From the NCBI GenBank assembly GCA_024403415.1, contig JAKSRY010000002.1, forward strand, positions 1-64,000: a stretch of DNA of 64,000 nucleotides. Direction: 5' to 3'. The position numbers and the translations under genes are program-made. Source of the DNA: Lachnospiraceae bacterium (GTDB lineage: Bacteria; Bacillota; Clostridia; Lachnospirales; Lachnospiraceae). This document shows, one piece after another, positions 30,696 to 64,000 of the stretch; positions within the stretch are counted from its first letter, which is position 1; each line of letters starts with the position of its first letter. The notes below the pieces were generated by a model. The model was not told the DNA's origin. It did not search any database and saw only the letters and a program-made list of their open reading frames with translations.

Positions 30696-32177
30696 ATGTT
30701 ATTTAATTCGTATCAATTTTTGGTATTTTTTCCGATAGTTTGTCTTTTGTACTTTATATTGCCCCAAAAGGTGAGATGGATATGGTTACTGGCATCTAGC
30801 TATTATTTTTATATGTGTTGGAATCCGGTTTACCTTATATTGATTGTGATATCTACGATAATAACTTACCTTTGTGCAATTTTTGTTGAAAAGGCAGAAA
30901 TGAATTCCACGAAGCGGCTTATTATTGCTGTTAGTATAGTGCTAAATATAGGGATACTGGGGTATTTCAAGTATACAAATTTCTTCGTCGATTCAATTAA
31001 TTCTATATTTTCTTTCTTAAAAATTAATCCAATTGGCAAATTGGATATTGTTTTGCCTGTGGGAATCTCTTTCTACACCTTTCAGGCTATAGGTTATACG
31101 ATTGACGTATATCGGAATGAAATAAATGCAGAGAAAAATATATTTAGATATGCACTATTTGTGTCTTTCTTTCCACAACTTGTAGCAGGCCCTATCGAAA
31201 GATCGAAGAATCTTATGATTCAAATTAGAAATGAGGCACATAACAAGGTATGGGATTATAGACGAATAACTCAGGGACTTATAATGATGCTCTGGGGACT
31301 ATTTATGAAGATGGTTATTTCAGATAGAATAGCCATTATTGTTGATCATATTTTTGACAATTATGAAGAGTATCATATGACGGGACTTTTTGTTGGTGCT
31401 GTGGCATTTGCTATTCAGATATATACCGATTTTAATGGATATTCGACAATTGCAATTGGTGCTGCCAAAGTACTGGGATTTGAACTTATGGAGAACTTTA
31501 ATACACCATTTTTTGCGCGTAGCATTGCGGACCTGTGGAGAAGATGGCATATTTCAATGAGCTCATGGTTTAGAGATTATATTTATATACCTTTAGGTGG
31601 AAATCGTAAGGGAAAACTCAAGAAGTACAGAAATCTTATGGTTACGTTCATGGTTTCCGGCCTATGGCATGGAGCAAATTGGACTTTTGTATTTTGGGGA
31701 GCTATAAATGGATTTTATCAGGTAATAGGTGATTTATTAAAACCGATTAAAAATAAAATCAATGGTGTTATGCATACCAAGACTGAATCTTTTGGATATA
31801 AGCTCATGCAGGCGCTTATAACCTTTGGATTGTTTGCTTTTTCATTTATTTTCTTTCGAGCCGAGACAATTACAGATGGTTTCCATTATATTGGAAGAAT
31901 GATTAAGTATAGAGACTGGTGGGCATTATTTGATGGAAGTATTCTTACTTATGGACTCGAAGGTTTAGATATGCAAATTTTGGTAATATCTTTGATTATA
32001 TTACTCATTGTGAGCATAGTAAGGTACAAGAGGTCTCTTAACATAGCACAGTACCTTGATAGACAATGTTTAGCATTCAGGTGGATGGTACTAATAATAT
32101 TGATAATGTTTATTCTCAATTTTGGATTTTATGGACCTCAATTTAATTCTGCACAATTTATATATTTTCAATTCTAA
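30696..32177 (+). CDS. MBOAT O-acyltransferase (AlgI-like), module 1
   Basis: 493 residues with many membrane segments. PVGISFYTFQAIGY, LVAGPIERSKN, WRRWHISMSSWFRDYIYIPLGG and SGLWHGANWTF, whose His is the expected catalytic residue, are the AlgI/DltB-type MBOAT signatures. Such proteins carry acyl groups across the membrane for O-acylation of surface glycans. The following SGNH gene is the expected partner. The gene starts two bases after proC and is clearly more AT-rich than it. Confidence 0.92.
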   Translation: MLFNSYQFLVFFPIVCLLYFILPQKVRWIWLLASSYYFYMCWNPVYLILIVISTIITYLCAIFVEKAEMNSTKRLIIAVSIVLNIGILGYFKYTNFFVDSINSIFSFLKINPIGKLDIVLPVGISFYTFQAIGYTIDVYRNEINAEKNIFRYALFVSFFPQLVAGPIERSKNLMIQIRNEAHNKVWDYRRITQGLIMMLWGLFMKMVISDRIAIIVDHIFDNYEEYHMTGLFVGAVAFAIQIYTDFNGYSTIAIGAAKVLGFELMENFNTPFFARSIADLWRRWHISMSSWFRDYIYIPLGGNRKGKLKKYRNLMVTFMVSGLWHGANWTFVFWGAINGFYQVIGDLLKPIKNKINGVMHTKTESFGYKLMQALITFGLFAFSFIFFRAETITDGFHYIGRMIKYRDWWALFDGSILTYGLEGLDMQILVISLIILLIVSIVRYKRSLNIAQYLDRQCLAFRWMVLIILIMFILNFGFYGPQFNSAQFIYFQF

Positions 32178-32260
32178 GATTTGTTTATGAGTTCTATTTT
32201 GATGAATGAAGAGAATGAAAACAGGTATAGTATATTATTTTAAAGAATGCAAATGGTTAA

Positions 32261-33715
32261 ATGGAGCAATTATTGATGAATGCGAAGATAATAAATATGT
32301 TGAAAATGATAGGATTTATAGCCTTAGTATCATTATGCATTAGTTTCTCGTTTAAGGCTCTTGTTTATAAAGATACTGGCGGAGGCGGTGGATTTGATAG
32401 ATTAGAAAACCTTCCTGAAAATTCTGTAGATGTTATTTTTTTTGGAAATAGTCATTGCCATTGTACTGTAGATCAAGGATTTCTTTGGGATAATTACGGT
32501 ATGGCAGGGTTTACTTTTACTGCTGGAAGTCAGCCGATTGATAGTACTGCTAGCTTTGTGGAGTATGCTGTTTCAATCCAAAATCCTAAGGTTATTGTAG
32601 TTGAAATAAGTGGAATATTTGCAGATGAATTAGACTCAGATTATGTGGACATATACAGAAATTTAGTGGGAATGGATTACTCACTTGATTATGTTGATAG
32701 AGCATTAACTATGGCTAAATCAATAGGAAACACTTTTGAATGTAAGTTTGAATTACTGACAAAATACCCCCTTGTCCATAACAGATATAGGGAATTAGGA
32801 CGTGAAGATTATGTATTGGATATTCCCTATATGATGGGTTATAAAGGAAGTATGGAGACGGTGCCTTATGAAAGGCCCAGTGTTGAAGAATGGACATCAT
32901 CTGACCCTATTTCAGAAGATGTACTAAGTCAAGTAGAAAAAATAGTGGATATAGCAAAAGAGAACAATGTTGAATTAGTTTTTTTTGCAGCACCGCTTGT
33001 AATTAATCAGCATAAGCAAGAACGTTATAATGCCTTTGAAAAATATGCAGATAGCAATAGTCTTTTATTTGTAAATTTTAATAATCTTTATGATGAATTA
33101 GCATTAGATTTTGCAACAGATTTTAGAGATCCGGATCACCTTAACAATAGAGGAGCGGTTAAGGTGACAAGTGTCCTTGCCGAAAAGATTAAATCAAAAT
33201 ATAAGATTCCTGATAGGCGTGGTGATAAAAAATACATATTATGGGATATGAATAGTCGTTATCTTCAGGATAAATCGATAAGAAATAATTTATCTCCTGA
33301 AGTAGATTTCAATACTTACATGAATGCAGTTAATCTTATCAGCGACCGATATGTTTCAATTATTAGATTGTCAGGAAATTATATGGCTATTCCAGAAAAT
33401 TATTCTAATGGGCTTGAAGATTGTGGAATAACAAGAGAAGATTTTAGCGAAGGTGGCTGTATCATTGTTGAAAATGGAAAAGTGTCAAAGCAATTGACTG
33501 GTGAATATTCATACTGCATATCTACTCCAAAAGAAGAAATACATATTGATTCAAAAAGAAATAGATTTCTTATTGACGGAGTTAATTATGAACTTCCGGA
33601 TAATAGTATTGGAGTAATAATATATGATTTTGAATTAGGATATCTTGTAGATGTTGTTAGTGTTGATATTTATCAAGATGGAACTATAGTAAAACATCCC
33701 AGCATTGATTTGTAG
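32261..33715 (+). CDS. SGNH/DltD-like acylation partner, module 1
   Basis: 484 residues. One N-terminal membrane segment, then an outer SGNH-like domain: FFGNSH (Ser64 the likely nucleophile), VVEISG, and DPDHLNNRGA with the DxxH pair. A C-terminal region of about 150 residues beyond the SGNH fold is unrecognised and probably beta-rich. In analogous systems (AlgX/AlgJ, PatB, DltD) the SGNH partner transfers the acyl group delivered by the MBOAT protein. The ATG at 32276, nine bases after a GGAG, is an alternative start. Confidence 0.8.
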   Translation: MEQLLMNAKIINMLKMIGFIALVSLCISFSFKALVYKDTGGGGGFDRLENLPENSVDVIFFGNSHCHCTVDQGFLWDNYGMAGFTFTAGSQPIDSTASFVEYAVSIQNPKVIVVEISGIFADELDSDYVDIYRNLVGMDYSLDYVDRALTMAKSIGNTFECKFELLTKYPLVHNRYRELGREDYVLDIPYMMGYKGSMETVPYERPSVEEWTSSDPISEDVLSQVEKIVDIAKENNVELVFFAAPLVINQHKQERYNAFEKYADSNSLLFVNFNNLYDELALDFATDFRDPDHLNNRGAVKVTSVLAEKIKSKYKIPDRRGDKKYILWDMNSRYLQDKSIRNNLSPEVDFNTYMNAVNLISDRYVSIIRLSGNYMAIPENYSNGLEDCGITREDFSEGGCIIVENGKVSKQLTGEYSYCISTPKEEIHIDSKRNRFLIDGVNYELPDNSIGVIIYDFELGYLVDVVSVDIYQDGTIVKHPSIDL

Positions 33716-40932: not shown

Positions 40933-41175
40933 ATGAGTAGAGAAGTTATTTTAGCAAAAGTAAATGAGATATTTTGGGATGTGTTTGATGATGAGAGTCT
41001 TGAAATCACTGAAGCAACTAATGCAGACGATATTGAAGATTGGGATTCGCTTACACATATATCACTTATAGAAGCGGTTGAATCGGAGTTTGATTTTAAG
41101 TTTGCTATGAAAGATGTGGTTGGAATGAAAAATGTCGGAGAAATGATAGACATTATCGAAAGAGAAATGGCATGA
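40933..41175 (+). CDS. Acyl carrier protein
   Basis: 80 residues from the ATG at 40933, preceded by GGAG; an upstream TTG is rejected. The acidic four-helix sequence and WDSLTHI, with Ser39 as phosphopantetheine site, identify a carrier protein. Its stop overlaps the MBOAT start by four bases (ATGA). In the dlt system, carrier, MBOAT and SGNH-like DltD work together to move an activated acyl group outside. No adenylation gene (DltA-like) is adjacent, so how it is charged is open. Confidence 0.9.
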   Translation: MSREVILAKVNEIFWDVFDDESLEITEATNADDIEDWDSLTHISLIEAVESEFDFKFAMKDVVGMKNVGEMIDIIEREMA

Positions 41176-42725
41176 CATTAGTTTCGTTTTCATTTATTTG
41201 TTTTTTGTTAATAGTATTACTTTTATATTACCTACTGCCAAGCAAATGGCAGTGGGTAATTTTGTTGTTCGGAAGTACTGCATTTTATATGCTAGCAGGT
41301 ACTCCGATTACATTTATTTACGTTATAATCAGCATTTTGTCTGTATATCTTGGAACCCATTTTATGGAGAAGAAACCGAATAGTAAGAAAAAGATATACG
41401 TATTCACATTACTGATAAATATTCTGATGCTGGTTGCTCTGAAATACACTAATTTCATTCTTACAAATATTACAGCTGTCGGTAGCCGATTCTCGGATAA
41501 CATTCATGAAGGTGACTGGTCTGTAAAGTGGATAGCTTCACTCGGAATAAGTTTTTACGCATTACAAATGATAGGTTATCTTACGGACTGCTATTGGGGA
41601 ATTACCGCTCCGCAGAAAAACATAGGTAAGCTGGCTCTTTACAACATATATTTTCCGCAAATGGTTTCGGGACCTATTAATAAGTATTCGAATTTAAGCA
41701 GTTCCTTGTTTGCTGAACATAAATTTGATGCGAACAATCTTCGTGAGGGTGGTTTTCGTATACTCCAGGGTTTCTTCAAGAAACTTGTTGTTTCAGAACA
41801 GTTAACCGGAATAGTAGATTACCTTTATGCTAATTATGCAGAATATAATGGCATTTATGTCTGGATTGGAACTGCTCTATATCTTTTGCAGCTCTATTCT
41901 GATTTTAGCGGATGTATGGATATTGTTCTTGGAGCCTCAAAGTGCTTTGGCATAGATCTGGCAGAGAATTTTAAGGCACCCTTTGCTTCAACATCCGTAC
42001 AGGAATTCTGGCAAAGATTTCATATGTCACTCGGGGCATGGCTTAAGGACTATATAATGTATCCGCTTATGAGAAGCAGTGCTTTTTCGAAAATGACAAA
42101 GAAATTGAAAAATAAGTACGGCAAGAAGGCCGCAAAGATGATACCTACCTTTGCTGCTATGTTTGTTGTATGGTTCTGCATGGGATTATGGCATGGTGGC
42201 GGATGGAATTTTATAGGTGAAGGAATCTGGTTCTGGTTAATGATAGTTTTGGGTCAGCTTCTTGAGAAACCATTAAAGTCACTTGGGAAGAATTTGCATA
42301 TAAATGGTGAATCCAAATTTATGCACAGTCTGAAGTGTGTGGGAACAAGCTTCTTAATAGGTATTGGTATTCTCTTTTTCAAGGCGGTTTCCCTGAGAGC
42401 AGCTTTTACTATGATAGGAAGTGCATTTAATCTGTCAAGACTGATAGCTTCTGTCGGAACGGTAGGGGAATCTTTGTCTCTGCTTGACAGTTCGATAGGA
42501 ACAAACAGGATTGTATGGGCAGCTATTTCGGTAGCTATAGGCCTTGCGGTAATGATACTGTTTGGACTTAAGGATAAGGCAGAAGAAAGATTCCATGTAT
42601 ATATATCCAAAAAGAATTTTTGGATTAGACTTTTGGTTGGTTATTTGCTGATTATGTCTATTATTTTCCTTGGCGCATATGGCCCGGGATATAGTGCAAG
42701 CGAATTTATTTATGGTGGTTTTTGA
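41172..42725 (+). CDS. MBOAT O-acyltransferase (DltB/AlgI-like), module 2
   Basis: 517 residues, polytopic. SLGISFYALQMIGY, MVSGPINKYSN, VQEFWQRFHMSLGAWLKDY and CMGLWHGGGWNF, with the catalytic His, are MBOAT signatures. It is more diverged from modules 1 and 3 than they are from each other. Overlap with the carrier protein gene and a one-base overlap with the SGNH gene tie the three into a translationally coupled set. The transferred group is unknown. Confidence 0.92.
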   Translation: MTLVSFSFICFLLIVLLLYYLLPSKWQWVILLFGSTAFYMLAGTPITFIYVIISILSVYLGTHFMEKKPNSKKKIYVFTLLINILMLVALKYTNFILTNITAVGSRFSDNIHEGDWSVKWIASLGISFYALQMIGYLTDCYWGITAPQKNIGKLALYNIYFPQMVSGPINKYSNLSSSLFAEHKFDANNLREGGFRILQGFFKKLVVSEQLTGIVDYLYANYAEYNGIYVWIGTALYLLQLYSDFSGCMDIVLGASKCFGIDLAENFKAPFASTSVQEFWQRFHMSLGAWLKDYIMYPLMRSSAFSKMTKKLKNKYGKKAAKMIPTFAAMFVVWFCMGLWHGGGWNFIGEGIWFWLMIVLGQLLEKPLKSLGKNLHINGESKFMHSLKCVGTSFLIGIGILFFKAVSLRAAFTMIGSAFNLSRLIASVGTVGESLSLLDSSIGTNRIVWAAISVAIGLAVMILFGLKDKAEERFHVYISKKNFWIRLLVGYLLIMSIIFLGAYGPGYSASEFIYGGF

Positions 42726-43810
42726 TGAAGAATAAAAAGGTGATCAAAAACTTAATAAGAATATTTGTAGTCATAGCATTGATTGGAGTGACGCTTTGGG
42801 GAATGGTGATAGTTTCATATGTTATGAGACCTATTTCACATAGCAGGCAGAATTTTTGCGGATTTTATGCGGAACCTGATAATTCTCTTGACGCTGTTAT
42901 GATAGGTTCTAGCTCATGCTACTATGCATGGCAGCCTCTTCGAGGTTTTAATGAATATGGTTTTACTTCGTATAACCTTGGAAGTGACGCGCTGCAACCG
43001 CAGAGCATTGAATATGAGGTAAAAGAGATTATTAAAACGCAGTCCCCCAAGCTTCTTATGATCGACTTAAGACCATTTCAATATGGTAATGTGATGAGCA
43101 ACTCAGAAGATTCAGTAAATATGGAGCGAGTTGCCCCATTTAGAAATGTTTCAGATAACATGAAATATTCCATGAACAGATATGAATTTATTCATAAAGC
43201 AGCGCCGACTGCAGAAGATGAATGGACTTATCAAATTGATATCTCAAAATATCATGCTCTCATCAGTGAACTCTTTTCGGCAGAAAACTGGAAGTATGCA
43301 TTTAACAGCTATCCGCTGACTGCCAAGGGTTTTTGGTATCATTATGAAAGCCGTATTATTGAATTTGATCCAAGAGATAATAAAGAGGAATATGCTGCAC
43401 TTAATGACAAGATAAAAGATATGTTTATCAGCCTTCTTGATACTGTCAAATTAGAATGTCCTGATACAGAGGTTCTGTTCCTTGTCATGCCGCATAAGGA
43501 TTATGGAAAGGTAGAAGGTGTATATAATTCATTATATAAGATAATTGATGAGTATGGATATGATTATCTTAACCTTATGGATTATATGGACTATATGAGA
43601 CTGGACAGATTATATGATTTCAGGGATGGAGATCATCTGAATCTTTCGGGAGCAACAAAGGTTTCCGAATTTATTGGTAGCTATATAGATATGCGTTATA
43701 ATCTGCCTGACAGACGGAACGACAGTGAATATGAAAACTGGAATGAATGTTATAGAACCTGGAATGAGGAAATGTCACAAGTTCAAATCATAGAGATGGA
43801 CTATGATTGA
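42725..43810 (+). CDS. SGNH/DltD-like acylation partner, module 2
   Basis: 361 residues from the ATG at 42725, which shares one base with the MBOAT stop. An N-terminal membrane segment (about 10-32) is followed by an SGNH-like domain: MIGSSSCYYAW (block I, 59-69), DLRPFQ, and RDGDHLNLSGA with the DxxH pair. It should act outside the membrane as the transferase partner of the MBOAT protein. A pyruvyltransferase gene overlaps or follows directly. Confidence 0.82.
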   Translation: MKNKKVIKNLIRIFVVIALIGVTLWGMVIVSYVMRPISHSRQNFCGFYAEPDNSLDAVMIGSSSCYYAWQPLRGFNEYGFTSYNLGSDALQPQSIEYEVKEIIKTQSPKLLMIDLRPFQYGNVMSNSEDSVNMERVAPFRNVSDNMKYSMNRYEFIHKAAPTAEDEWTYQIDISKYHALISELFSAENWKYAFNSYPLTAKGFWYHYESRIIEFDPRDNKEEYAALNDKIKDMFISLLDTVKLECPDTEVLFLVMPHKDYGKVEGVYNSLYKIIDEYGYDYLNLMDYMDYMRLDRLYDFRDGDHLNLSGATKVSEFIGSYIDMRYNLPDRRNDSEYENWNECYRTWNEEMSQVQIIEMDYD

Positions 43811-49307: not shown

Positions 49308-49385
49308 GAAAATGGTGTTTACGATCGCATAAAAATATAATGAATCTGTTATTTATATTTGAAATATTGGTGCGAAGGGATATAT

Positions 49386-50813
49386 ATGCTTTTTAATTCT
49401 ATTTCTTTTGGTATATTTTTAATAATTGTATTCGCATTATATTGGATTGTTCCTAATAAATTCAGGACTATCCTTCTTTTTATCTCCAGCTGTTATTTTT
49501 ATATGAGCTGGAATCCAAAGTATATTTTACTGATTTTCTTTATGATTACCGTAAGCTATTTTTCCGGGAAAATCATTCAGAGAAGTGACAACAAAAGAAA
49601 GCGGAAAGCGATTCTTACGCTAACCATATGCTTGTGCATTGGAGCACTGTTTTTCTTTAAATATTTTAATTTTATATCAGACAATATAGTTAATTTAGCA
49701 AAATTATTATCGATACAGCTACAACCTGTAACGCTGGATATTCTTCTGCCGGTTGGAATTTCGTTTTATACCTTCCAAACTTTAAGTTATGTGATTGATA
49801 TATATCGTGGTAAAGTCGAAGAAGAACGCAATTTTATTGTATTTGCTACATTTATTTCTTTTTTTCCACAATTGGTTGCAGGCCCTATAGAAAGATCGAC
49901 AGATTTGCTGCCTCAAATTAAAAGTGAGAAGCGCTTTTCTTATGAAAATGCATCATATGGCTTAAAATTAATGGCCTGGGGGTTTTTTAAGAAACTTGCA
50001 ATAGCAAATCTTGTGGCACCATATGTAGACAAAGCATATTCTTCGATAGCTTCCTGCACAGGATTTGACATCTTATTCATGATGCCAATGTTTGCAATTC
50101 AGATATATTGTGATTTTTCAGGCTACTCAGATATCGCAATTGGTACAGCGAGGCTGTTTGGAATAAAGTTATCGAAGAACTTCATTAGTCCATATTTTGC
50201 AAATAGTATTAGTGATATGTGGCATAGATGGCATATTTCATTATCTACCTGGCTTAGAGATTATATTTATATTCCCTTAGGAGGAAGCAGAGTCTCGAAA
50301 GTGAGAAGGGTTTATAATCTGGTTATAACATTCTTTGTAAGTGGTCTTTGGCATGGGGCTAACTGGACTTATGTAATATGGGGATTATTCCATGGATTTG
50401 CCCAGGCAATAGCGGGATTGTTTCCCAGAAGAAACAAAAAGAAGTCAGGAGCAAGGAATCTGTTTTCGATGCTGGCAGTATTCATTTTCTGGTGTGTTAC
50501 ATGGGTGTTTTTTAGAGCAGATTCAATTACAGATGCTTTTGAAGTATTTAAAAAGTTGTTTGGTTCAGTAACGAATCCTTCGACCTTTGTTCATCAGAAT
50601 ATAGGCCTAACGCCTATGATTGGAATAGAGATGCTGGTTGGAGTTATTATACTTGCTATTTTTGACTATGCATCCTTGAGGGTGGATGTTATTGAATGGC
50701 TGTCGAAGAAAAAGACATTAATACGCTGGTCGGTATATGTATTACTAATATGGCTTACTGTAACCTTTATGCCCTTTGACAGCGGTGCACCTTTTGTATA
50801 TTTTCAATTTTAG
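49386..50813 (+). CDS. MBOAT O-acyltransferase (AlgI-like), module 3
   Basis: 475 residues from the ATG at 49386 with GAAGGG upstream; an earlier TTG is rejected. PVGISFYTFQTLSY, LVAGPIERSTD, WHRWHISLSTWLRDYIYIPLGG and SGLWHGANWTY carry the MBOAT signatures and catalytic His. It is close to module 1 at 30696 over most of its length, indicating paralogy. The SGNH partner gene follows after a few bases. Confidence 0.92.
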   Translation: MLFNSISFGIFLIIVFALYWIVPNKFRTILLFISSCYFYMSWNPKYILLIFFMITVSYFSGKIIQRSDNKRKRKAILTLTICLCIGALFFFKYFNFISDNIVNLAKLLSIQLQPVTLDILLPVGISFYTFQTLSYVIDIYRGKVEEERNFIVFATFISFFPQLVAGPIERSTDLLPQIKSEKRFSYENASYGLKLMAWGFFKKLAIANLVAPYVDKAYSSIASCTGFDILFMMPMFAIQIYCDFSGYSDIAIGTARLFGIKLSKNFISPYFANSISDMWHRWHISLSTWLRDYIYIPLGGSRVSKVRRVYNLVITFFVSGLWHGANWTYVIWGLFHGFAQAIAGLFPRRNKKKSGARNLFSMLAVFIFWCVTWVFFRADSITDAFEVFKKLFGSVTNPSTFVHQNIGLTPMIGIEMLVGVIILAIFDYASLRVDVIEWLSKKKTLIRWSVYVLLIWLTVTFMPFDSGAPFVYFQF

Positions 50814-50825
50814 TGGATTTTGAAC

Positions 50826-51761
50826 ATGAAAAAATTTATTAAAAAAATCTTTATATTTATAAGCATATTCATAGGCTTTTTTATCCAATTGTTTCTGTTC
50901 GACTGGCTTGTTATCGGTGACCAGTATCAGGGAGTATATAACGCGTCTATTAACGATAAGATTGAAAGACTTCAGAGTATAGAAGGACCTAAAATAATAC
51001 TGGCAGGAGACTCGAATCTTGTATATGGAATCAATTCTGAACTTATAGAACAGGCATTTGAAAAACCGGTTGTTAATTTAGGACTGAATGCTCTGCTTGG
51101 AAATGCTTTTTTAGAGAATATGATTAAGTTTGGAGTGTCAGAAGGAGATATTGTCATACTTAGTCACTGGAATTTTAATGACAGTGATGAAATTATGGAT
51201 CCGCATGTAGCTCTTACTACAGTAGAGCATAATTGGGAATATTGGAAACTATTTAGGTTAAAGGATTATCCGGGACTTATAAGGGACTATCCCCATTATC
51301 TGATTTATTCAATGTTTCATTGGGTGACAGGAGAATCTGAAAATCAAATCAAAGATGGAACGAGTAACTCCAGGGCCGCTTTTAATAAATATGGCGATAT
51401 TTGTAAAAGATTTGATACATCGTTTAGCTTTTCAGAGGGTTCTGGGTGGGTTCCTGAGACATCAGAAGAATGTATGAAAAGAATTAACGAACTTAATGAA
51501 TACGTTAAATCAAAGGGTGCTACTTTACTGATTACCGCATATCCAATTGGAATGGGTGAGTTTACACCGGATGCCTCTCTTTTTGAAGAATTTGAAAAGG
51601 AACTAACTGCTAAAGTGAATTGCGAAGTGATTTCTCATTTTACGGATTATTTTTTTGATTATAGTTTATTTTATGATGCGGCTGTACATCTCAATGCCGA
51701 AGGCGCAGATATTAGGACGCAGCGGCTTATTGATGACCTAAAAAGATGGATGAATAAATGA
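50826..51761 (+). CDS. SGNH-like acylation partner, module 3
   Basis: 311 residues. One membrane segment at the N-terminus, then IILAGDSNLVYGI (block I) and, near the C-terminus, YDAAVHLNAEGA. In that last motif the Asp and His are separated by three residues, not two as in modules 1 and 2, so either the spacing differs in this subfamily or the Asp is not part of the active site. It should be the outer transferase partner of the MBOAT protein. It is the last gene of the operon. Confidence 0.75.
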   Translation: MKKFIKKIFIFISIFIGFFIQLFLFDWLVIGDQYQGVYNASINDKIERLQSIEGPKIILAGDSNLVYGINSELIEQAFEKPVVNLGLNALLGNAFLENMIKFGVSEGDIVILSHWNFNDSDEIMDPHVALTTVEHNWEYWKLFRLKDYPGLIRDYPHYLIYSMFHWVTGESENQIKDGTSNSRAAFNKYGDICKRFDTSFSFSEGSGWVPETSEECMKRINELNEYVKSKGATLLITAYPIGMGEFTPDASLFEEFEKELTAKVNCEVISHFTDYFFDYSLFYDAAVHLNAEGADIRTQRLIDDLKRWMNK

Positions 51762-55847: not shown

Positions 55848-57370
55848 AAATGACAGACAAAATTACTAAGATAGTTACTCCTAAGCGATTCTCAATATTT
55901 ATGGGTATAGTGTTTCTGGTGACACTCATACCAATGATCATATTGGGTTTTTATAATCATCCAAGTGCTGATGATTTCTCAATCGGATACGCGGCGTATC
56001 ACACTTTTAGTGACAGCGGTAATATCTTTGCGACAATCGGAACGGCTATCGCACATGCGTTCGATGACTGGCTGAACTGGATGGGTTATTTTACATCAAC
56101 CTTCCTGATGTCTCTGCCACCGAGTGTTTTTGGAGAGTTTGCATATAAGTTCAGTACATTAATATTGCTGACTGCTCTTTGCTCGAGTATCTGGTATCTT
56201 TTCAGAATGATTTTCAGTAAGGCTCTCGGTGCGGACAAATATATCGTAAATGCAATTGTTTTTATTATGCTGACAGGGCTTATACAGTGTATGCCGGTGA
56301 GCGCAGCTCAGGAGTCTTTTTACTGGTATTGCGGTGCTGCTAATTATATTCTCGTAGCATCACTTGCAATGTGGGAGATGGGTCTTTTGATATCTTTGTA
56401 TGTGGATATTAAAAGTCAGTCCCCAAAGAAGCACCTTGTTAAGAAGATTGCTACAGTTTTCTTGGGATTTTTAATTGGTGGCGGTAATCACCTTACAGCA
56501 CTTAATACAGTGCTTATAGCTATTATTATGTGGTTTGTCTTTTTAGTAACTAAATCACTTAAGAAAAAAGAAGTTAGAAGTATGATTTTGCCAACGCTGG
56601 GGCTCCTTATTGGTTTTGCACTTAATGTAATGGCTCCGGGAAATTCAACCAGAGTTGCTATTACCGAAGGAATGAGCCCTCTTAAGGCTGTATTGGTTTC
56701 GCTGTTTTACTACTTCAAGTACTGCATTAATGAATGGCTGACATGGCCGGTTATCATTATGCTTGTTCTGCTAATACCGCTGATGATACGTGCTGTCAGG
56801 AAGACAAATTTTGAATTCAGATATCCACTTATTATCGTATTTTTAGGATATGGGCTTACTTCTGCGATGATGACACCGAGTCTTTTTGCACTGGCCAATA
56901 TTGAAGCAGGCAGATTAAGGGCTCTGACATATATAATGTTCATTCTTACTCTTGTAATATCCGAAGCATATGTGATCGGATGGGCAGTTAAAAAATCTGC
57001 ATTCATCAAAAAGGATGTGAATATTTCAGACGGAAATTTTGGAAAAAATGAACTTTTGATGATTGTGTCAGTACTTCTGTTTACATTATTTGCTGTTGGA
57101 ATAACCGCTGTTCCGGAACCTGACTATTTTATTTCAACAGAAGCTATGTTAGAAGTAGCAGGTGGAGAGGCTGCCACATATTCTGCTGAATTAAATGAGC
57201 GTTATGAAAAATATATGTCAGGTGACAAAAATATAGTAGTTAAGCCATTAAGCGTTCATCCTAAACTTATCTTTTTTGTCGATATGGAGGGTGAAAATGA
57301 AGAGTGGATTTCGAATGCTGTCCGCAGATATTACAGATTGGAATCCGTAAAGATTGACGGGGAAGAGTGA
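55844..57370 (+). CDS. DUF6056-like membrane protein, putative GT-C glycosyltransferase
   Basis: 508 residues, about twelve membrane segments. The outer-loop acidic pair is in NHPSADDFSIG, and FYWYCGAANYIL matches the second motif of the proteins at 9675 and 38414. Four-base overlaps with the aminotransferase before it and the acyltransferase after it place it in a tightly coupled operon. It is the third member of this family in the window. Use of a polyprenyl-linked sugar is inferred from topology. Confidence 0.65.
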   Translation: MKMTDKITKIVTPKRFSIFMGIVFLVTLIPMIILGFYNHPSADDFSIGYAAYHTFSDSGNIFATIGTAIAHAFDDWLNWMGYFTSTFLMSLPPSVFGEFAYKFSTLILLTALCSSIWYLFRMIFSKALGADKYIVNAIVFIMLTGLIQCMPVSAAQESFYWYCGAANYILVASLAMWEMGLLISLYVDIKSQSPKKHLVKKIATVFLGFLIGGGNHLTALNTVLIAIIMWFVFLVTKSLKKKEVRSMILPTLGLLIGFALNVMAPGNSTRVAITEGMSPLKAVLVSLFYYFKYCINEWLTWPVIIMLVLLIPLMIRAVRKTNFEFRYPLIIVFLGYGLTSAMMTPSLFALANIEAGRLRALTYIMFILTLVISEAYVIGWAVKKSAFIKKDVNISDGNFGKNELLMIVSVLLFTLFAVGITAVPEPDYFISTEAMLEVAGGEAATYSAELNERYEKYMSGDKNIVVKPLSVHPKLIFFVDMEGENEEWISNAVRRYYRLESVKIDGEE

Positions 57371-58416
57371 TGGAGATGAAGGATAACATCAGAAAAAAGC
57401 ATATTGAGCTGGTGCGAGTCTTGGCAATATGTCTGGTGGTATTTCATCATACAGACATATGTTACGGTGTATACCACAATTCAGATAATCCTGTTGCGTA
57501 TGCCCTTTCATTGTTTGTGACAGTTTTATGTAATGTTGATGTTCCATTATTCTTTATTGTATCAGGCTATCTGTTGCTGAATAAGGAAGAAAGTATAAGG
57601 GACCTGTTCAAAAAAAGAGTATCGAGAATGTTAATGGTTCTCATTATCTTTTCAGTAATAATGTATGTCTTCTGGGTTCTTCGTGGGACCATAGAAACAC
57701 CTTCTGTTGGGGATTTCTTGAACAGGTTGTATACAGGAGATATACAGGGAACTTATTGGTTTTTATATAGTTATATAGGCTTTTTGCTCATATCTCCATT
57801 CTTGAGAATGATTGTAAGCAGGATAAAGCTTAATGAGTATTTTTATTTTTTTATATTTATGATTGTCCTTGAAATTGTATATATGATAGGAGATGGTACG
57901 GGAGTAAAACCGAGTGTTGATTTCAGATCTATTGTAAGATCTGTTTCAGAATATTCATTTTTTGCAATATCAGGCGGAGTTTTCAAAAAGTATGAAAAAG
58001 AACTGGAAACTATGTTCAAAACCAAATATGTGATATGGGCAACAGCTTTTAGTATTCTGACTCCAATGCTGATTGTCAGCATAAGTTTGCTTAGTGGAAA
58101 CGGATATGCCGAATGGGGAAGGTCAGCGTTTAGTACATTGCTTGGATTATCTCTATACTTTGTCATACATAAACTTGTGCATGCCCATGCGGAATCAAAA
58201 ATTTTAGGATTCCTGGCAAGAGGGGGAAAGTATGTGTTTGCTGTTTATCTTATTGAGCAGCTTATGCGTTCTCTTTATTTAATACCATATAAACACATGT
58301 TGGAAATCCTTCCTGCTACTGTAGTGGAGTTTATGTACGGCAGTATTGCAATTGTTACAGGTTTTTGTGTTGCCTTTGTACTAAAGAAAATACCCGGAAT
58401 CAAGAAATTGTTGTAG
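57370..58416 (+). CDS. Acyltransferase-3 family membrane protein
   Basis: 348 residues from the ATG at 57370, which overlaps the previous stop; another ATG lies six bases on. IELVRVLAICLVVFHHTD with the conserved His, DVPLFFIVSGYLLL and KKRVSRML are family motifs. About ten membrane segments. It should acylate a sugar of the polymer made by the surrounding transferases. It is the fifth member of this family in the window. Confidence 0.87.
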   Translation: MEMKDNIRKKHIELVRVLAICLVVFHHTDICYGVYHNSDNPVAYALSLFVTVLCNVDVPLFFIVSGYLLLNKEESIRDLFKKRVSRMLMVLIIFSVIMYVFWVLRGTIETPSVGDFLNRLYTGDIQGTYWFLYSYIGFLLISPFLRMIVSRIKLNEYFYFFIFMIVLEIVYMIGDGTGVKPSVDFRSIVRSVSEYSFFAISGGVFKKYEKELETMFKTKYVIWATAFSILTPMLIVSISLLSGNGYAEWGRSAFSTLLGLSLYFVIHKLVHAHAESKILGFLARGGKYVFAVYLIEQLMRSLYLIPYKHMLEILPATVVEFMYGSIAIVTGFCVAFVLKKIPGIKKLL

Positions 58417-58445: not shown

Positions 58446-59579
58446 ATGAAAGTTTTATATCTTACTAATCTTCCGGCACCATATACCGTTGAGTTTTTGA
58501 CAGAGCTTGGAAAACACTGTGAGCTGACAGTTGTTTTTGAACGTCATTCTGCCTCAGACAGAGATAAAAAATGGGTGTCGGAGGCAAAAAAAACATATAA
58601 AGAAATATTCCTTAAGGGGATAAAGGTTGGACCGGAAAATTCAATATGTCCCGGAATAAAGAAGATACTTAAGGAAAAATACGATCATGTGATAATTGGG
58701 ATGTACAGCACATTCACTGCGATGATGGCCATAAAATACCTAAACAGGAAAGGGATTCCTTATATTATAAGTACCGATGGCGGACATATAAGAGAGAATG
58801 AAAATCCAAAGAAGAAGGCGTTTAAAACCGGACTTATAGGTGGTGCAAAGGCATGGCTGTCAACCGGACGTGTTGCAGACCGCTATCTGATGCATTATGG
58901 CGCAAAACCAGAGGGTTTGTATGAATATCCTTTTACTTCATTAAAAAAAGAAGAAATATTGGAAGCATCGGTAACTGATGAGAAAAAGGCAGAACTTCGG
59001 AAAAAGCTTGGTATTGAAGGAGAATATGTAGTTATTGCGGTTGGAAGATATATACCTCTTAAAAGATGGGAAATACTTGTCGAATCAATGCGTATGTTTA
59101 ATAACGAAGGTGATAATAAAGTTCACTGTTATCTCGTGGGAGGAGAAAGGGAAGAGCTTGTTCCTTTATTAGACGGAGCGGGAATACCTGAAAATTTCCA
59201 TACAATCCCATTTATGAAAACCAGGGAATTATTTGAATACTACCAGGCAGCAGATGTATTTGTCATGACAACAGAAACCGATGTGTGGGGATTGGTGGTT
59301 AATGAAGCAATGGCTAATGGACTTCCAATTGTTTCTACAGTGAAGTGTAATGCAGGAGTAGAACTTATAGAAGAAGATGTTAATGGTAAACTCATACCTG
59401 TCGGTGATAGTGAAAGTTTGTACAACGCTGTAAAGGAATTACTTTCGAAGCCTGAAAGGCTTACCCAAATGGGAGAGAACAATCTTAAAAAAATCAGTTC
59501 ATATACTTATGAAATGATGGGAATCAAAGTATATGAGGCTTTACTTGCAATAGGAAGTACAGATGGAGAACAAAAATAG
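58446..59579 (+). CDS. GT4-family glycosyltransferase
   Basis: 377 residues, GT-B fold. LYLTNLPAPYTVEFL opens the acceptor domain, VIAVGRYIPLKRWE begins the donor domain, and ETDVWGLVVNEAMANGLPIVST is the donor-binding EX7E-like region. It transfers a sugar from a nucleotide donor with retention at the inner membrane face. TGAGGAAAT precedes the ATG. Its 3' end overlaps the next GT2 gene by 17 bases. Confidence 0.92.
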   Translation: MKVLYLTNLPAPYTVEFLTELGKHCELTVVFERHSASDRDKKWVSEAKKTYKEIFLKGIKVGPENSICPGIKKILKEKYDHVIIGMYSTFTAMMAIKYLNRKGIPYIISTDGGHIRENENPKKKAFKTGLIGGAKAWLSTGRVADRYLMHYGAKPEGLYEYPFTSLKKEEILEASVTDEKKAELRKKLGIEGEYVVIAVGRYIPLKRWEILVESMRMFNNEGDNKVHCYLVGGEREELVPLLDGAGIPENFHTIPFMKTRELFEYYQAADVFVMTTETDVWGLVVNEAMANGLPIVSTVKCNAGVELIEEDVNGKLIPVGDSESLYNAVKELLSKPERLTQMGENNLKKISSYTYEMMGIKVYEALLAIGSTDGEQK

Positions 59580-60537
59580 ATTAACGATAATAACACCCTT
59601 TTATAAGGCTGAAAAATATATTGAGGACTGTATTAAATCATTGCTTGATCAGGACTTGGAAGAAGTACAGTATATATTTGTAAATGACGGAAGTCCGGAT
59701 GATGCAGATAAAATAGTTCAAAAATATGCAGAAAAGGATAAAAGAATGCTTCTGCTTACCAAAGAAAACGGTGGCCAAAGCTCAGCCAGAAATATGGCTA
59801 TGAAATATGCCAATGGTGAATATATTCTTTATGTGGATGCAGATGATTATCTTGAACCTAATGTTCTTGGAACTATGGTTAAGGCAGCTGAAGATAACAG
59901 TCTTGATATATTAAGGGCTATTATCTGTGATGTCAAGGGTGATGAAAAAATTCAGATTGATGAACTCGATAATCCCGGGACTGTTATGACGGGCAGGGAG
60001 AGATTAAGCCATAATATGATTTCATATTCTCTTTGCGCGCATATGTACAGAAGAGATTTCCTATTTAAGAACAATATAGTTTTTATGGAAGGTGTGTATC
60101 ATGAAGACATGGATTATGTTCCGAGGACCTTGTATTATGCTAAAAGAGTGATGGATCTTGATTTGTTCTTCTACGATTATGTCGTGGTAGAAGGTTCGAC
60201 AACAAACCATTACAGCTTAAAGAGAGTGGAAGATGTGTATCGGGTTGCTGTAAATGTGTCAGAATTTGTAGATAAAGAAGTATCTGCCGATGATTACGAC
60301 AACTATTTCAGAGAATATCTGGCATTTATGTTTGCACATGTTATTAGTCTTTGTATTGTAAGCGGACATTCATTAAAGGATTTTCTTGCATCAGGAAATA
60401 AGAAGCCTGAAGTCTTAAAACATCTTAAAACTTCAAAACAAAAGAAATATAAGTTACTAGGCATTATGTTGAAATTGAAGTTATATAAGCTTTACACCAG
60501 AATGTATCTTTTAAGAGAAAAGAAAGTTGAGAAATGA
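59563..60537 (+). CDS. GT2-family glycosyltransferase (EpsJ-like)
   Basis: 324 residues. IITPFYKAEKYIEDCIKSLL, FVNDGSPDD and the metal site YVDADDYLEP are intact, followed by HEDMDYVPR, typical of capsule and exopolysaccharide GT2 enzymes. No C-terminal membrane pair, so it differs from the GtrB-like GT2s here. It starts inside the preceding GT4 gene and ends 46 bases before the long fusion gene. Confidence 0.92.
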   Translation: MENKNRLTIITPFYKAEKYIEDCIKSLLDQDLEEVQYIFVNDGSPDDADKIVQKYAEKDKRMLLLTKENGGQSSARNMAMKYANGEYILYVDADDYLEPNVLGTMVKAAEDNSLDILRAIICDVKGDEKIQIDELDNPGTVMTGRERLSHNMISYSLCAHMYRRDFLFKNNIVFMEGVYHEDMDYVPRTLYYAKRVMDLDLFFYDYVVVEGSTTNHYSLKRVEDVYRVAVNVSEFVDKEVSADDYDNYFREYLAFMFAHVISLCIVSGHSLKDFLASGNKKPEVLKHLKTSKQKKYKLLGIMLKLKLYKLYTRMYLLREKKVEK

Positions 60538-60583
60538 TAGTATACGGAAAAAGAACCGGAACTTGCAACTAAAAGGATTATAA

Positions 60584-63500
60584 ATGATGGAATGCTCTGT
60601 TAAAAATAAATTGCATATAAGTGAGCTGTTTTACTATCTCATGCTGTTTTGTTTTCTTTCAGTAAGAGCAGTAGGAATTCAGGATGGCCAGTGGCCCTTT
60701 AAGGTGGCACTGATCCTTGGATTTATTTTCTTTGTACCCAAATATTTCACTACGAAATATAGCCTTTTGGAGCATATTCTGAATTTCCTTCTGATAACAC
60801 TTGGAATAGCGATATTTCTGAACAATGGGCATTTAGAAGCTCTTGTGGGATTTAGTATCGTAATTGGAATGAAAAATATCAAAATCAGAAATGCCATGGT
60901 ACTTACTCTTGGTATATGGGGAGGTTTCTTCATTCTGTCTGTCATAAGGGCTCTGCTCAGATTTTTTCCGGGATATGTTGGAACTGCAACAAAGACAGGA
61001 ATGTCTTTTGGAATCGTGAGATATTCTCTTGGTTTTACACACCCCAATGTTCTGCACATGACTTATCTCATTATTGTACTTCTCATTCTTTATTTTATCA
61101 GGAACAGCGGAAAGAAAAGCCTTTTGGCCGCAGTACTGCTGATGATAGGTAATATTTATATTTTTGCTTATTCAGTAAGTTATACCGGAGTTTTGGTAGT
61201 GACCTTTGCAATCGGTGTTTTTCTGTTCTTTGAATTGCGAAAGAAACTTACAATCATAGATGGGGTTCTTTCCGGTTTGTTTGTTGTCGGATGTTCACTG
61301 GTATTGATCGTCGGTGCTCTTCTTGTTGACGGAAGCCTAAAAGAACTATTTAACAAGGTTCTTAATGAAAGAGTTGAGATGACATCTACAGTATTTTCGA
61401 CGTACTCGCTGTCTTTGATAGGAAGGGTTGAGGATATTCATGCATTAGACTGTAATCTTGACTGTTCTTATGCATATATGATTTATTATTCGGGCATCAT
61501 TGTTTTTGCTCTGTTTGTTATCTCATATGTTATGACTGTTTTTAATGCCGTTAAGAAAAATGACAGGAGGTCACTTACAGTTTTACTCTCTGTCTCACTG
61601 GCAGGAGTTACTGAGCAGTTTGTCGGTAATCTTTCCTTTAAGAATTTGTCATTGTTTTTTATAGGTGACTATCTTTACAATGGATTTTTCAATTCCCTTG
61701 GAGAAAAATATACACTTCTTTCAAAACAGTATTCCCTCATTAGTGCTGAAGATATGTATTTGTCAAAGGAGTGGATGAATACTGTCAAAAAGAAGGTTTT
61801 GAATTATTTTTCAGGTACAAGGTGGTTAAAGTGCATATTGCCGGCGGTCGGCGTGGCAGTTATATGTAATCTTGTATTTAATATTTTTTGGACAGAGCCT
61901 AAACATGTATATGCTGCAGTAACGGATTATTCAGAAGGTGAAATGATACCTTATTCCGAACTTCAGGTATCAGCAAAAAATGAAAAATATATTGTTATAG
62001 GAGAACCAAAAGACGGAGATTATGTTGCAATTCTCGACTGGGTTAGTACTAAAGCAGAAACCTATCGAGGAGAAGTAAGCTCAGTTTTATGGGGATTTCT
62101 GTTTGGATTCCTGCTTTCGGCATTCATTCTAAATACAAGAAAGCTAAATTCTGTTTTCATTGAAGAAACAGTAGAAAAGTCCGGAAATATCGGTCTTCCC
62201 AATATGACAAAATGTTCTATTTTGGGAACGAACATAGCTGTGACCAATATGGGAAATACAGTCTCTTATTTAACACAGAATCTTGATCTTTTGCGGGGAA
62301 AATATATTTGTGTGTCCAATGTACATACGACGGTAATGTCATACAAGGATGCGGAATATCAGAAGGTGCAGAATAATGCAGTTCTTGCTCTGCCGGATGG
62401 AAAACCGCTGTCTTATGTCAGCAGAAAAAGAGGATATTTTCAGGCGGACAGAGTTGCAGGTCCCGATCTTATGACGGAAATATTTAAGATTTCGGCTGAA
62501 AAGGGATACAGACATTTCTTTTTTGGAAGTACAGAAGATACTTTGGATAAGCTTACAAAGAAACTTGAAGAAAGATATCCCGGGATTAATATTGTCGGAA
62601 CATATTCACCTAAATATTATGCAAACGTGAACGATATTCCGAAAGAAGAAAACGAAGAACATATCAGACTGATAAATGATGCAAAGCCTGATTTTATCTG
62701 GATTGGTCTTGGGGCTCCAAAACAGGAGTTGTGGATGGCTGCTCATGAAGGCTGTTTTAACGGCATCATGCTTGGCGTAGGGGCAGGATTTGATTTCCAC
62801 GCAGGAACTGTCAAAAGAGCACCCAAAATTCTTCAGATGTTATATCTTGAATGGTTCTATCGTCTGTTACAGGATCCCAAGCGTCTCTTTAAGAGATATT
62901 TCGATACAAATATGACCTTTATCAGAAAGACTCATATTGAAAATAAGAAACTTAAGAAAAACGAAATTTCTCATGAAAAGAAGAGACTCCTTATATATGC
63001 ACATTATTATGCTCCGGATGTCGCATCCACCGGTCAGATTCTGACAGAGCTTGCAGAGGGAATCGAAGATAAATTTGATGTAACGGTAGTTGCTGCTGTT
63101 CCGTCATATAGTGGAAAAATAGACGATTATTATAAAGAACACAGATTTTATCAGCAGAGCCTTAGAGGCGTCCGAGTTCTCAGAGTCAGAGTTCCTGAAT
63201 TTACCAAAGCCAATAAACTCAGCCGTGTAAGAAATATCGCCCAGTATTATTTCAGAGCACGTAAAGTGACTAAGAAGGTTGGCGGACAGGATTATATTCT
63301 TTCAATTAGTCAGCCACCAATTCTGGGCGGAATGCTTGGAAGATATGGTAAGAGAATTAAGAAAGCCAAGTTCATTTACAATATTCAGGATTTTAATCCC
63401 GAACAGATTGAATCGGTATCTTACAGTAAGAACAAGCCGCTTATTTCAGTGCTTAAATATCTTGACTATAAGAACTGCCGTAAGTCTGATTTGATAATTA

Positions 63501-64000
63501 CTGTTGGAAGAGATCTGGGTGAGACGATCGAAAGGCGATTTGCGAAAGAAAAGAAGGTTCCACATTATACAATTATCAATAACTGGATTGATGAAACTGC
63601 GATATATCCACTTGAAGAAAGAAATGAGGAAGTCGTTTCATTTAAGAAAAAAAACGGCCTTGAAAATAAGTTTATCTTTATGTATTCAGGTAATCTCGGA
63701 TTATACTATGATCTGGAAAATATGCTTAAGGTAATTGAAAAGATTCCGGAGAAGAAGTCTGCAGATGGGCGCGAGGTGGCATATGTTTTTATAGGAAACG
63801 GAACGCTTAAGTCAAAACTCGAAGAATATGTAAAATCTCATAATATGGATAATGTCATATTTTTGCCATATCAGGATAAAGAGAAACTGGTGTACAGCCT
63901 GAATGCCGCAGATGTCCACATTTGTGTAAATGCAAAAGGAATTAAAGGTGTAAGTTGCCCAAGTAAGTATTATGGAATAGCGGCAGTCGGCAAACCGGTG
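60584..64000 (+). CDS. Wzy-like membrane region fused to GT26 and GT4 domains (partial, runs off window)
   Basis: An uninterrupted frame of 1139 codons from the ATG at 60584 (AAAAGG seven bases upstream) to the last base, with no stop. Residues 1-415 are polytopic and look like an O-antigen polymerase/ligase: GFTHPN at 150-155 and DCSYAYMIYYSGI at 293 on. Two more membrane segments (about 417-438 and 500-517) flank an outer loop of about 60 residues. Residues 541-785 are a WecG/TagA/CpsF (GT26) domain with PDG at 604-606 and PKQE at 712-715. Residues 802 on are a GT4 domain (HYYAPDVASTGQ, MYSGNLG), still open at AAVGKPV; roughly 60 residues are probably missing. One protein could thus both extend and polymerise a repeat unit. 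Polymerase function is inferred from topology. Confidence 0.85.
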   Translation, partial: MMECSVKNKLHISELFYYLMLFCFLSVRAVGIQDGQWPFKVALILGFIFFVPKYFTTKYSLLEHILNFLLITLGIAIFLNNGHLEALVGFSIVIGMKNIKIRNAMVLTLGIWGGFFILSVIRALLRFFPGYVGTATKTGMSFGIVRYSLGFTHPNVLHMTYLIIVLLILYFIRNSGKKSLLAAVLLMIGNIYIFAYSVSYTGVLVVTFAIGVFLFFELRKKLTIIDGVLSGLFVVGCSLVLIVGALLVDGSLKELFNKVLNERVEMTSTVFSTYSLSLIGRVEDIHALDCNLDCSYAYMIYYSGIIVFALFVISYVMTVFNAVKKNDRRSLTVLLSVSLAGVTEQFVGNLSFKNLSLFFIGDYLYNGFFNSLGEKYTLLSKQYSLISAEDMYLSKEWMNTVKKKVLNYFSGTRWLKCILPAVGVAVICNLVFNIFWTEPKHVYAAVTDYSEGEMIPYSELQVSAKNEKYIVIGEPKDGDYVAILDWVSTKAETYRGEVSSVLWGFLFGFLLSAFILNTRKLNSVFIEETVEKSGNIGLPNMTKCSILGTNIAVTNMGNTVSYLTQNLDLLRGKYICVSNVHTTVMSYKDAEYQKVQNNAVLALPDGKPLSYVSRKRGYFQADRVAGPDLMTEIFKISAEKGYRHFFFGSTEDTLDKLTKKLEERYPGINIVGTYSPKYYANVNDIPKEENEEHIRLINDAKPDFIWIGLGAPKQELWMAAHEGCFNGIMLGVGAGFDFHAGTVKRAPKILQMLYLEWFYRLLQDPKRLFKRYFDTNMTFIRKTHIENKKLKKNEISHEKKRLLIYAHYYAPDVASTGQILTELAEGIEDKFDVTVVAAVPSYSGKIDDYYKEHRFYQQSLRGVRVLRVRVPEFTKANKLSRVRNIAQYYFRARKVTKKVGGQDYILSISQPPILGGMLGRYGKRIKKAKFIYNIQDFNPEQIESVSYSKNKPLISVLKYLDYKNCRKSDLIITVGRDLGETIERRFAKEKKVPHYTIINNWIDETAIYPLEERNEEVVSFKKKNGLENKFIFMYSGNLGLYYDLENMLKVIEKIPEKKSADGREVAYVFIGNGTLKSKLEEYVKSHNMDNVIFLPYQDKEKLVYSLNAADVHICVNAKGIKGVSCPSKYYGIAAVGKPV

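Follow-up and report, generated by a model that had tools for sequence, protein, structure and literature searches.

We have found that a single open reading frame at the right edge of the window, i.e., the whole stretch of 64,000 nucleotides analysed here, joins a Wzy-like membrane part, a GT26 (WecG/TagA/CpsF) domain and a GT4 domain in one protein. The window corresponds to bases 1–64000 of a contig of 171,256 bases (C12 of the host genome G000), so the numbering of the two is identical. The frame opens with an ATG and, as the initial annotation had read it, contains no stop up to the window edge (1139 aa). Reading on into the host contig brings it to its stop, which corrects the right end and gives a protein of 1218 aa with no internal stop (Table 1). 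A second species of the same genus (G003) carries the same three parts in one frame of 1210 aa, unbroken by stops or frameshifts between the domains, and the two proteins are 54–55% identical end to end (42% in the polymerase-like part, hereafter POL, 37% in its tail, 71% in GT26, and 62% in GT4). The architecture is thus present in another member of the Lachnospiraceae, and the three-domain fusion is confirmed as a real single-frame protein, neither a product of chance nor an assembly fault.

Table 1 Features of the fusion gene and of the upstream polysaccharide cluster, in window coordinates
Feature	Position	Strand	Basis
Acyltransferase_3 protein, upstream in cluster	57367..58416	+	Pfam 6.5e-34
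GT4 glycosyltransferase, upstream in cluster	58446..59579	+	Pfam 7.6e-30
GT2 glycosyltransferase directly upstream of fusion	59563..60537	+	Pfam 1.6e-32
AGGA, Shine-Dalgarno-like, 6 nt ahead of fusion ATG	60574..60577	+	by eye
Three-part fusion CDS	60584..64000 in the window; last base of the stop codon at 64240	+	open frame; twin in G003
POL, polytopic Wzy-like part, residues 1–400	60584..61783	+	hhalign and conserved residues
POL tail, TM helix / outer loop of roughly 65 residues / TM helix, about residues 414–520	61823..62143	+	hydropathy
Met541 codon at polymerase/GT26 junction	62204..62206	+	window and G003 sequence, by eye
GT26 domain, residues 541–792	62204..62959	+	Pfam 2.6e-57, TIGR00696
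GT4 domain, WcaI-like and presumably WbuB-like, residues 799–1218	62978..64000 (continues to 64237)	+	Pfam, NCBIfam

The proposed order of the three parts also holds. Of the profile matches that had been anticipated, those to WecG and Glycos_transf_1 were obtained with Pfam, while the Wzy_C model was not matched above its cut-off, and the N-terminal part is linked to the Wzy-like proteins by profile comparison. Actually, residues 1–540 show no Pfam match over the cut-off, Wzy_C included, and a PDB sequence search with the polymerase part gave no match; among 24 relatives, the Wzy_C model matched one, at 2.6e-4. When the POL family (21 rows kept out of 35 profile hits) was compared by hhalign with 28 rows of the Wzy_C family (28 of 30 fetched loci used), the probability was 95.9 over 238 columns (P 6.2e-9), while the five control sets all stayed under 1 (MOP 0.5, Wzz 0.6, MBOAT 0.5, DUF6056 0.3, and the cassette flippases 0.1). 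A smaller Wzy_C set, with 9 of 30 loci and one reading direction only, gave 74. R146, N155, R263 and D293 are present in all 21 rows, and H153 and E344 in 19 of them, with D293 aligned onto the His of the Wzy_C consensus. According to PMC10920833, the Wzy/WaaL clan GT-C1 has one or two conserved outer Arg, and an Asp or Glu where ligases have His; the Arg/Arg/Asp pattern of R146, R263 and D293 agrees with this in every POL row. This comparison indicates that POL is related to the Wzy_C polymerases and ligases, as first suggested for the N-terminal part, and since the Pfam cut-off is not reached we keep the label "Wzy-like".

The membrane/cytosol layout that had been drawn is consistent with hydropathy and charge, which are its only basis. 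A script counts 10 helices in the polytopic part and we count about 14 by eye. The putative inner loops are rich in Lys/Arg (173–178, 219–221, and 324–329), the long outer loop 248–300 holds R263 and D293, and Arg519-Lys520 follow the final TM helix. In the tail, hydropathy peaks at residues 426 and 507. Its outer loop had been interpreted as a separator between the polymerase and the cytosolic enzymes; since polymerases encoded by separate genes carry the same TM-loop-TM tail, the loop is a feature of the polymerase family rather than a spacer. In total, 16 of the 21 aligned POL rows have the tail, and it is reduced in the other loci (L097, L101, L109, L112, and L166). This tail-bearing family escapes Pfam and could account for loci seemingly without a polymerase. 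An identification of the tail as a Wzz co-polymerase was rejected, as hhalign against PF02706 members (30 of 30 fetched loci used) gave a probability of only 16.6 over 37 columns. The host genome has no PF02706 (Wzz) match. In the family sample, PF02706 occurs in 3 of 13 tail-bearing genomes versus 216 of 384 others (Fisher p 0.023, uncorrected, for genomes that are not independent by descent).

For the GT26 domain, the only one found in the host genome, Pfam WecG matches residues 600–772 (PF03808, 193.7 bits versus a cut-off of 27.4), and TIGR00696 scores 156.7 bits versus 69. The PDG and PKQE motifs reported earlier are intact at the site level (D605-G606 and K713-Q714-E715). In the alignment to 7mpk, TagA Asp65 is kept as D605 and the appendage residues Arg214, Arg221 and Arg224 as R760, R767 and R771, while V577 occupies the position of Thr37, and therefore the donor need not be ManNAc. 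The score against the TagA/TarA equivalog model is 118.9 bits, below the 350 required. The GT4 domain, which we take to be WbuB-like, matches Glycos_transf_1 (PF00534) over residues 1021–1189 (4.1e-13, 49.7 bits versus a cut-off of 26.4) and is similar over its full length to the WcaI model NF007640 (2e-42), though both WcaI scores lie under their cut-offs (NF007640, 145.6 versus 276 bits; TIGR04007, 77.6 versus 800.45 bits). It is 56% identical to a one-domain GT4 of G020.

The fusion belongs to a cassette shared with G003, with identities of 43.5% for GT2, 54% for the fusion, 54% for a second GT2 (GT2'), and 56% for the flippase; in G003, the relative of the upstream GT2 (43.5%) immediately follows the fusion. 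Pfam and NCBIfam give no useful match for the cassette flippase. Hhalign of the flippase set against PF01943-family rows (19 of 20 flippase loci used) gives a probability of 98.5 over 469 columns. Four Bac_transf PGTs are found in the host genome, none of them on the contig of the fusion.

We consider it likely that the fusion is a membrane-anchored assembler of repeat units, and also their polymerase, in a Wzx/Wzy-type surface polysaccharide pathway whose flippase is a separate protein. A PGT encoded elsewhere in the genome would make Und-PP-sugar, the GT26 domain would add the second sugar as the committed step, and the GT4 domain would add the third, where the order of transfer and all the sugars are predictions. 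The GT2 enzymes would then complete the repeat unit, the separate MOP-type flippase would turn it outward, and POL of the same protein would join the repeats outside. The likely benefit would be anchoring together with a fixed 1:1:1 stoichiometry, with the commitment of Und-PP intermediates limited, in place and in amount, to the polymerase that is present. That the two transferases and POL share one protein suggests that the building and the polymerising of repeats are physically tied. On the other hand, the fusion would not form a transmembrane channel: the initial annotation proposed that intermediates could be channelled, and this is unsupported for their passage into polymerisation, because the predicted topology puts the transferases on the cytosolic side and turns the conserved residues of POL outward, and the flippase has its own gene. 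According to the abstract of PMC11813082, bacteria can remain viable when periplasmic steps are disrupted, and to that extent the Und-P argument for coupling is weakened.

A broader proposal is offered only tentatively, and we would sooner doubt it than assert it. In the polysaccharide pathways of Lachnospiraceae, adjacency of genes, two-part fusions and the three-part protein may mean that the committed transferase (GT26), the one acting after it (GT4) and the polymerase work as a single functional unit. The three-part protein would then be a starter-carrying polymerase that sets Und-PP commitment by stoichiometry, and the tail may be a built-in, non-homologous substitute for Wzz in a genome seemingly without it.

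The fusion could also be passive, i.e., the loss of a stop codon joined neighbouring genes and the enzymes act as if apart, with no effect of the join. Polymerase genes do precede GT26-GT genes closely, directly ahead of a gene for GT26 and another GT by about 15 nt in G089 and about 170 nt in G398, and in G654 the polymerase gene precedes a truncated-GT26-GT4 gene whose reading frame it shares, stop codons separating the two; small changes could therefore fuse such pairs. (A reading of G654 as one frame of 1174 aa was discarded, since these are two genes.) Besides, Met541 lies near the point where separate-gene WecGs start, in both species the GT26 part opens with a Met, and this codon is possibly the former start of a GT26 gene. 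However, the fusion has been kept, with its cassette, in two species 45% diverged, and fusions combining these functions are seen repeatedly in other clades, although the independence of the GT26-GT4 joins is only moderately supported. We judge a passive fusion unlikely.

It is distinctly unlikely, in our estimate, that the membrane part is instead a ligase, or some other lipid-PP-sugar transferase, handing the glycan over to a different acceptor as WadA does. The POL relatives do fall in Wzy_C, a mixed family of ligases and polymerases, WadA itself exemplifies a ligase-GT fusion, and in some relatives two Wzy-like genes share a locus, one tail-bearing and one short. But in C12 55,000–114,999, BLAST finds no other ORF matching POL, no ORF of this region or of the window matches the short Wzy-like type, the two Wzy_C matches of the host genome sit on other contigs, and POL has Asp where ligases carry the acceptor-activating His. 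Alongside these, there are unprofiled polytopic ORFs such as L002:14254-16035.

That two products are made, by a restart at Met541 or by proteolysis at the junction, releasing a soluble GT26-GT4 protein and leaving little or no fused machine, appears quite improbable. The Met shared by both species would allow it, but by eye no Shine-Dalgarno sequence stands at normal spacing before Met541 in the window, and the junction of G003 offers only GAAGG, 13 nt from the Met. Lastly, the source assembly is fragmented (77 contigs, 87% complete), but an assembly or frameshift artefact is hardly conceivable because another genome has the same architecture in one frame at the identity given above.

Enzymes of the two membrane faces of the Wzy pathway have mostly been studied as separate proteins, and a natural protein that joins starter transferases to a polymerase offers a direct test case for coupling across this pathway. 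In an open-access literature search, chiefly by listings, we found no described enzyme of the exact Wzy-like/GT26/GT4 architecture, in line with the earlier statement that none was known. WadA, an O-antigen ligase GT121 fused to GT25 (PMC10920833), is by analogy a precedent for fusing a membrane enzyme with a glycosyltransferase. Like the fusion, it joins a membrane enzyme of the Wzy/WaaL kind, acting on lipid-PP-sugar, to a globular glycosyltransferase, but it has a ligase and a single GT25, whereas the fusion combines a tailed Wzy-like part with GT26 and GT4, and has no Pfam match to GT25. TagA/TarA, WecG and EpsA share with the fusion the GT26 family, the catalytic Asp and three C-terminal arginines; TagA binds the membrane peripherally (PMC6493773), while the GT26 domain of the fusion hangs on a polytopic part, scores under the equivalog cut-offs, and has Val for Thr37. 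Compared with WcaI-type GT4s, the GT4 domain differs in its sub-threshold score and in being joined to GT26.

To regard separate genes as the norm for such parts goes too far, because relatives contain GT26-GT4 and Wzy-GT fusions and the WadA ligase-GT25 is described. The three-part fusion occurs in 2 of 6 genomes of the genus, and no third was found in samples of 397 genomes of the family and 392 of the order; relatives mostly make these enzymes as separate or two-part proteins. Two-part GT26-GT4 proteins are found elsewhere in Lachnospiraceae (Butyrivibrio, Kineothrix and kin), with the same transferase types in the same order, and usually beside a short Wzy-like gene. Among 15 loci of their clade (5 with a truncated GT26 half), such a gene directly adjoins in 14 and lies directly downstream in 13. 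They differ from the fusion in the separate polymerase-like gene and in their place in the GT4 tree, where the GT4 of the fusion falls in another clade. In three other groups of Lachnospiraceae (G123/G419, G385/G070, and G194) a Wzy-like N-terminal part is followed by a C-terminal GT, either a GT4 or a galactofuranosyltransferase-like part, as in the fusion, but without a GT26 domain or a match to the tail. Pfam recognises the first two groups; the galactofuranosyltransferase part of G194 matches at 4.8e-77, below the cut-off of that model. The two-part genes of G123 and G419 have a one-domain GT26 gene immediately ahead of them. Such related joins within one bacterial family hint that coupling is favoured there.

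Descent of the GT26-GT4 part of the fusion from the two-part clade is disfavoured. With clade and fused rows grouped as one clade, and with groups named after the first trees, p-AU was 0.0126 for GT4 (13 clade and 2 fused rows versus 38 others, with the best 36 of 63 one-domain rows) and 0.0541 for GT26 (10 clade rows). The trees thus give moderate support to the join having arisen separately in the fusion and in the two-part clade. Any preference for the join would depend in part on this separate origin elsewhere, which the GT26 tree (p-AU 0.054) neither establishes nor contradicts. L103 lies apart from the two-part clade, and the GT26 gene of G005 begins at a contig end (L036). Candidate "PGT-WecG" fusions were rejected, as no PGT match was obtained in the four tested or in L051, which is a VanZ-GT26 protein.

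We have translated the frame that the initial annotation had read as unbroken up to the window edge, and it is indeed open from its ATG to that edge. On the contig, C12, whose positions 1–64000 are the window, it is closed by a stop, and the product is 1218 aa. It comprises an N-terminal polytopic Wzy-like part (POL), a tail of two membrane segments with an outer loop, a WecG/TagA/CpsF domain (GT26) and a GT4 domain. The host genome is 2.71 Mb in 77 contigs and 87% complete. The fused protein is no artefact, and the suggested search in other Lachnospiraceae has found the three parts again in a genome of the same genus (G003), in 1210 aa and at 55% identity. Between the two proteins, conservation is highest in GT26 and lowest in POL and the tail. 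Both loci contain the fusion, a flippase and a pair of GT2 genes, at 43.5–56%, as well as an acetyltransferase-like gene (69%), while the other surroundings mostly differ. This cassette flippase has no Pfam match; together with seven kin it matches PF01943-family rows by profile (probability 98.5). The two fused proteins cluster together in the GT26, GT4 and POL trees, and their closest POL in the tree is a separate gene of G136.

Within the genus, two of six genomes carry the fusion; in G001 and G002 the tail-bearing POL is encoded separately, and the GT26 gene of G005 is interrupted by a contig end. The POL profile at 1e-10, with three candidates scored per genome, matches 48 of 397 family genomes, and a 1200-aa frame is seen only in the same two. 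The whole-protein profile finds matches at 1e-60 in 40 of the 392 genomes of the order, full-length only in these two; at most two candidates were scored per genome, and weak cases may be missed. Among the best 80 of 536 relatives in named genomes there is no such frame, and the host's near kin are perhaps absent from that set.

The profile searches proposed earlier have matched both transferase domains directly, and have related POL to Wzy_C by profile comparison. For residues 1–405 no Pfam model matched even at E 10; residues 1–545 gave a single unrelated model (E 1.2), and residues 346–545 alone three models, all below cut-off (best 0.051). Both the genus and the family contain relatives of POL encoded by separate genes (519–561 aa). 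A 21-row profile, built from both fused proteins and 19 others, matches a set of 28 Wzy_C-family rows taken from relatives with probability 95.9 (P 6.2e-9, 238 columns), while the control sets MOP, Wzz, MBOAT, DUF6056 and cassette flippases all score ≤0.6. R146, N155, R263 and D293 are kept in 21/21 rows, H153 and E344 in 19/21. This arginine/Asp pattern is of the kind described for clan GT-C1, where extracts of PMC10920833 mention outer arginines, and Asp or Glu replacing the ligase His. Residues 1–400 appear Wzy-like and are a putative polymerase. Hydropathy and charge, read by hand, put the long loop 248–300 outside and the GT domains inside.

The outer loop had been regarded as a separator between polymerase and cytosolic enzymes. 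Actually, the same two segments and loop end 16 of the 21 aligned rows, both fused proteins counted, and are reduced in the other five; judged by this alignment, the tail belongs to the polymerase family. Profile comparison does not relate it to Wzz. Wzz (PF02706) has no match in the host genome despite four PGTs (Bac_transf transferases, which would make Und-PP-sugar), which may mean a different chain-length control or a gene within the missing 13%.

GT26 is matched by Pfam (2.6e-57) and NCBIfam (156.7 bits, cut-off 69), and is the sole such domain found in the 87%-complete host genome. GT4 is matched by Pfam (4.1e-13) and, below the NCBIfam cut-off, by the WcaI family (2e-42); its stretch within the window has no PDB sequence match. 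In an alignment to TagA (7mpk), with positions matched by hand, catalytic Asp65 corresponds to D605 and appendage arginines 214, 221 and 224 to R760, R767 and R771, their roles being as given in extracts of PMC6493773. Thr37, reported there as contacting ManNAc, is replaced by V577, so the donor sugar need not be ManNAc.

The pathway would start from a PGT encoded elsewhere (none of the four is on C12), followed by GT26, GT4, the GT2s, the flippase and the polymerase. Direct channelling of intermediates, as once proposed, is unlikely, because transferase and polymerase sites would lie on opposite membrane sides with the flippase between; anchoring and fixed stoichiometry are plausible gains. 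In the extracts of the cited papers, WecG-family enzymes catalyse the committed second-sugar step (PMC11340318), disturbed Und-P recycling is harmful (PMC11813082, PMC12826051), and cells survive loss of periplasmic steps (PMC11813082), which counts against a strong need for coupling. The nearest described case, from extracts of PMC10920833, is WadA (ligase + GT25); titles and abstract openings of the open-access literature searched name no Wzy-GT26-GT4 protein.

GT26-GT4 proteins of 667–719 aa occur in 11 loci, 10 of which form one clade. A join shared with the fused pair has p-AU 0.0126 in the GT4 tree and 0.0541 in the GT26 tree, so a separate join is likely, though not firm. Of 15 clade loci, 14 have a short Wzy-like gene as immediate neighbour of the GT26-GT4 gene (downstream in 13, upstream in L110); in L108 two genes intervene. 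These 15 include five truncated members, three placed by tree and two (L263, L265) by similarity, with L149 and L264 counted as one locus. L103, outside the clade, has no such gene. The short-gene profile scores 97.4 over 330 columns to Wzy_C-family rows and 83 to POL. The adjoining gene (~370–420 aa; L097, L104–L107, L109–L112, L149, L166, L167, L263, L265) is nearly invisible to Pfam; a second copy lies upstream in L105 and L107, and one further upstream in L104. In the truncated Butyrivibrio-type members (L149, L166, L167, L263, L265) only ~130–170 residues precede GT4, and the catalytic PDG Asp and KQE motif are gone; this half is a pseudo-enzyme domain, perhaps serving GT4 as membrane or partner dock. 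The Kineothrix alysoides GT26 half may be inactive, since Glu replaces the catalytic Asp and one appendage Arg.

Other joins exist. GT26 carries another long C-terminal part in G002, G005, G008, G089, G346 and G398; in G008, the sole one so tested, it is GT4 by Pfam. Polymerase-like parts are joined to a GT without GT26 in G123 and G419 (both with a GT26 gene just upstream) and in G385 and G070, and to a galactofuranosyltransferase-like part, also without GT26, in G194. Proteins with GT26 behind 3–4 TM helices may represent another way to anchor GT26; those of L044, L098, L101 and L266 have no PGT match, and that of L101 matches CoA_binding_3. The remaining observations are listed in the table.

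Positions of the fused protein and of other features (window numbering, or locus:positions)
Feature	Position	Remark
Fused protein (+)	60584–64240	ATG to end of stop
Acetyltransferase-like gene	45103	
MBOAT-like O-acyltransferase + SGNH-like pairs	30696–33715, 41172–43810, 49359–51761	presumed, by eye
Fourth such pair, after the fusion	L002:11825–14219	presumed, by eye
Short-chain reductase-, ketoacyl-synthase-, AMP-ligase-, thioesterase-like genes	L047:6670–19319 (C12 ~81.7–94.3 kb)	within polysaccharide region, by eye
3–4 TM-GT26 proteins	L044:7740–9230, L098:7161–8579, L099:8856–10301, L101:7181–8701, L266:2499–4115, L267:10534–12135	GT26 C-terminal
Kineothrix alysoides GT26-GT4	L112:5974–7998	
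VanZ-GT26 fusion	L051:7416–8663	Pfam VanZ 6.9e-18, GT26 3.6e-61
Two tandem GT26 matches in one ORF	L268:3628–5181	62% and 38%
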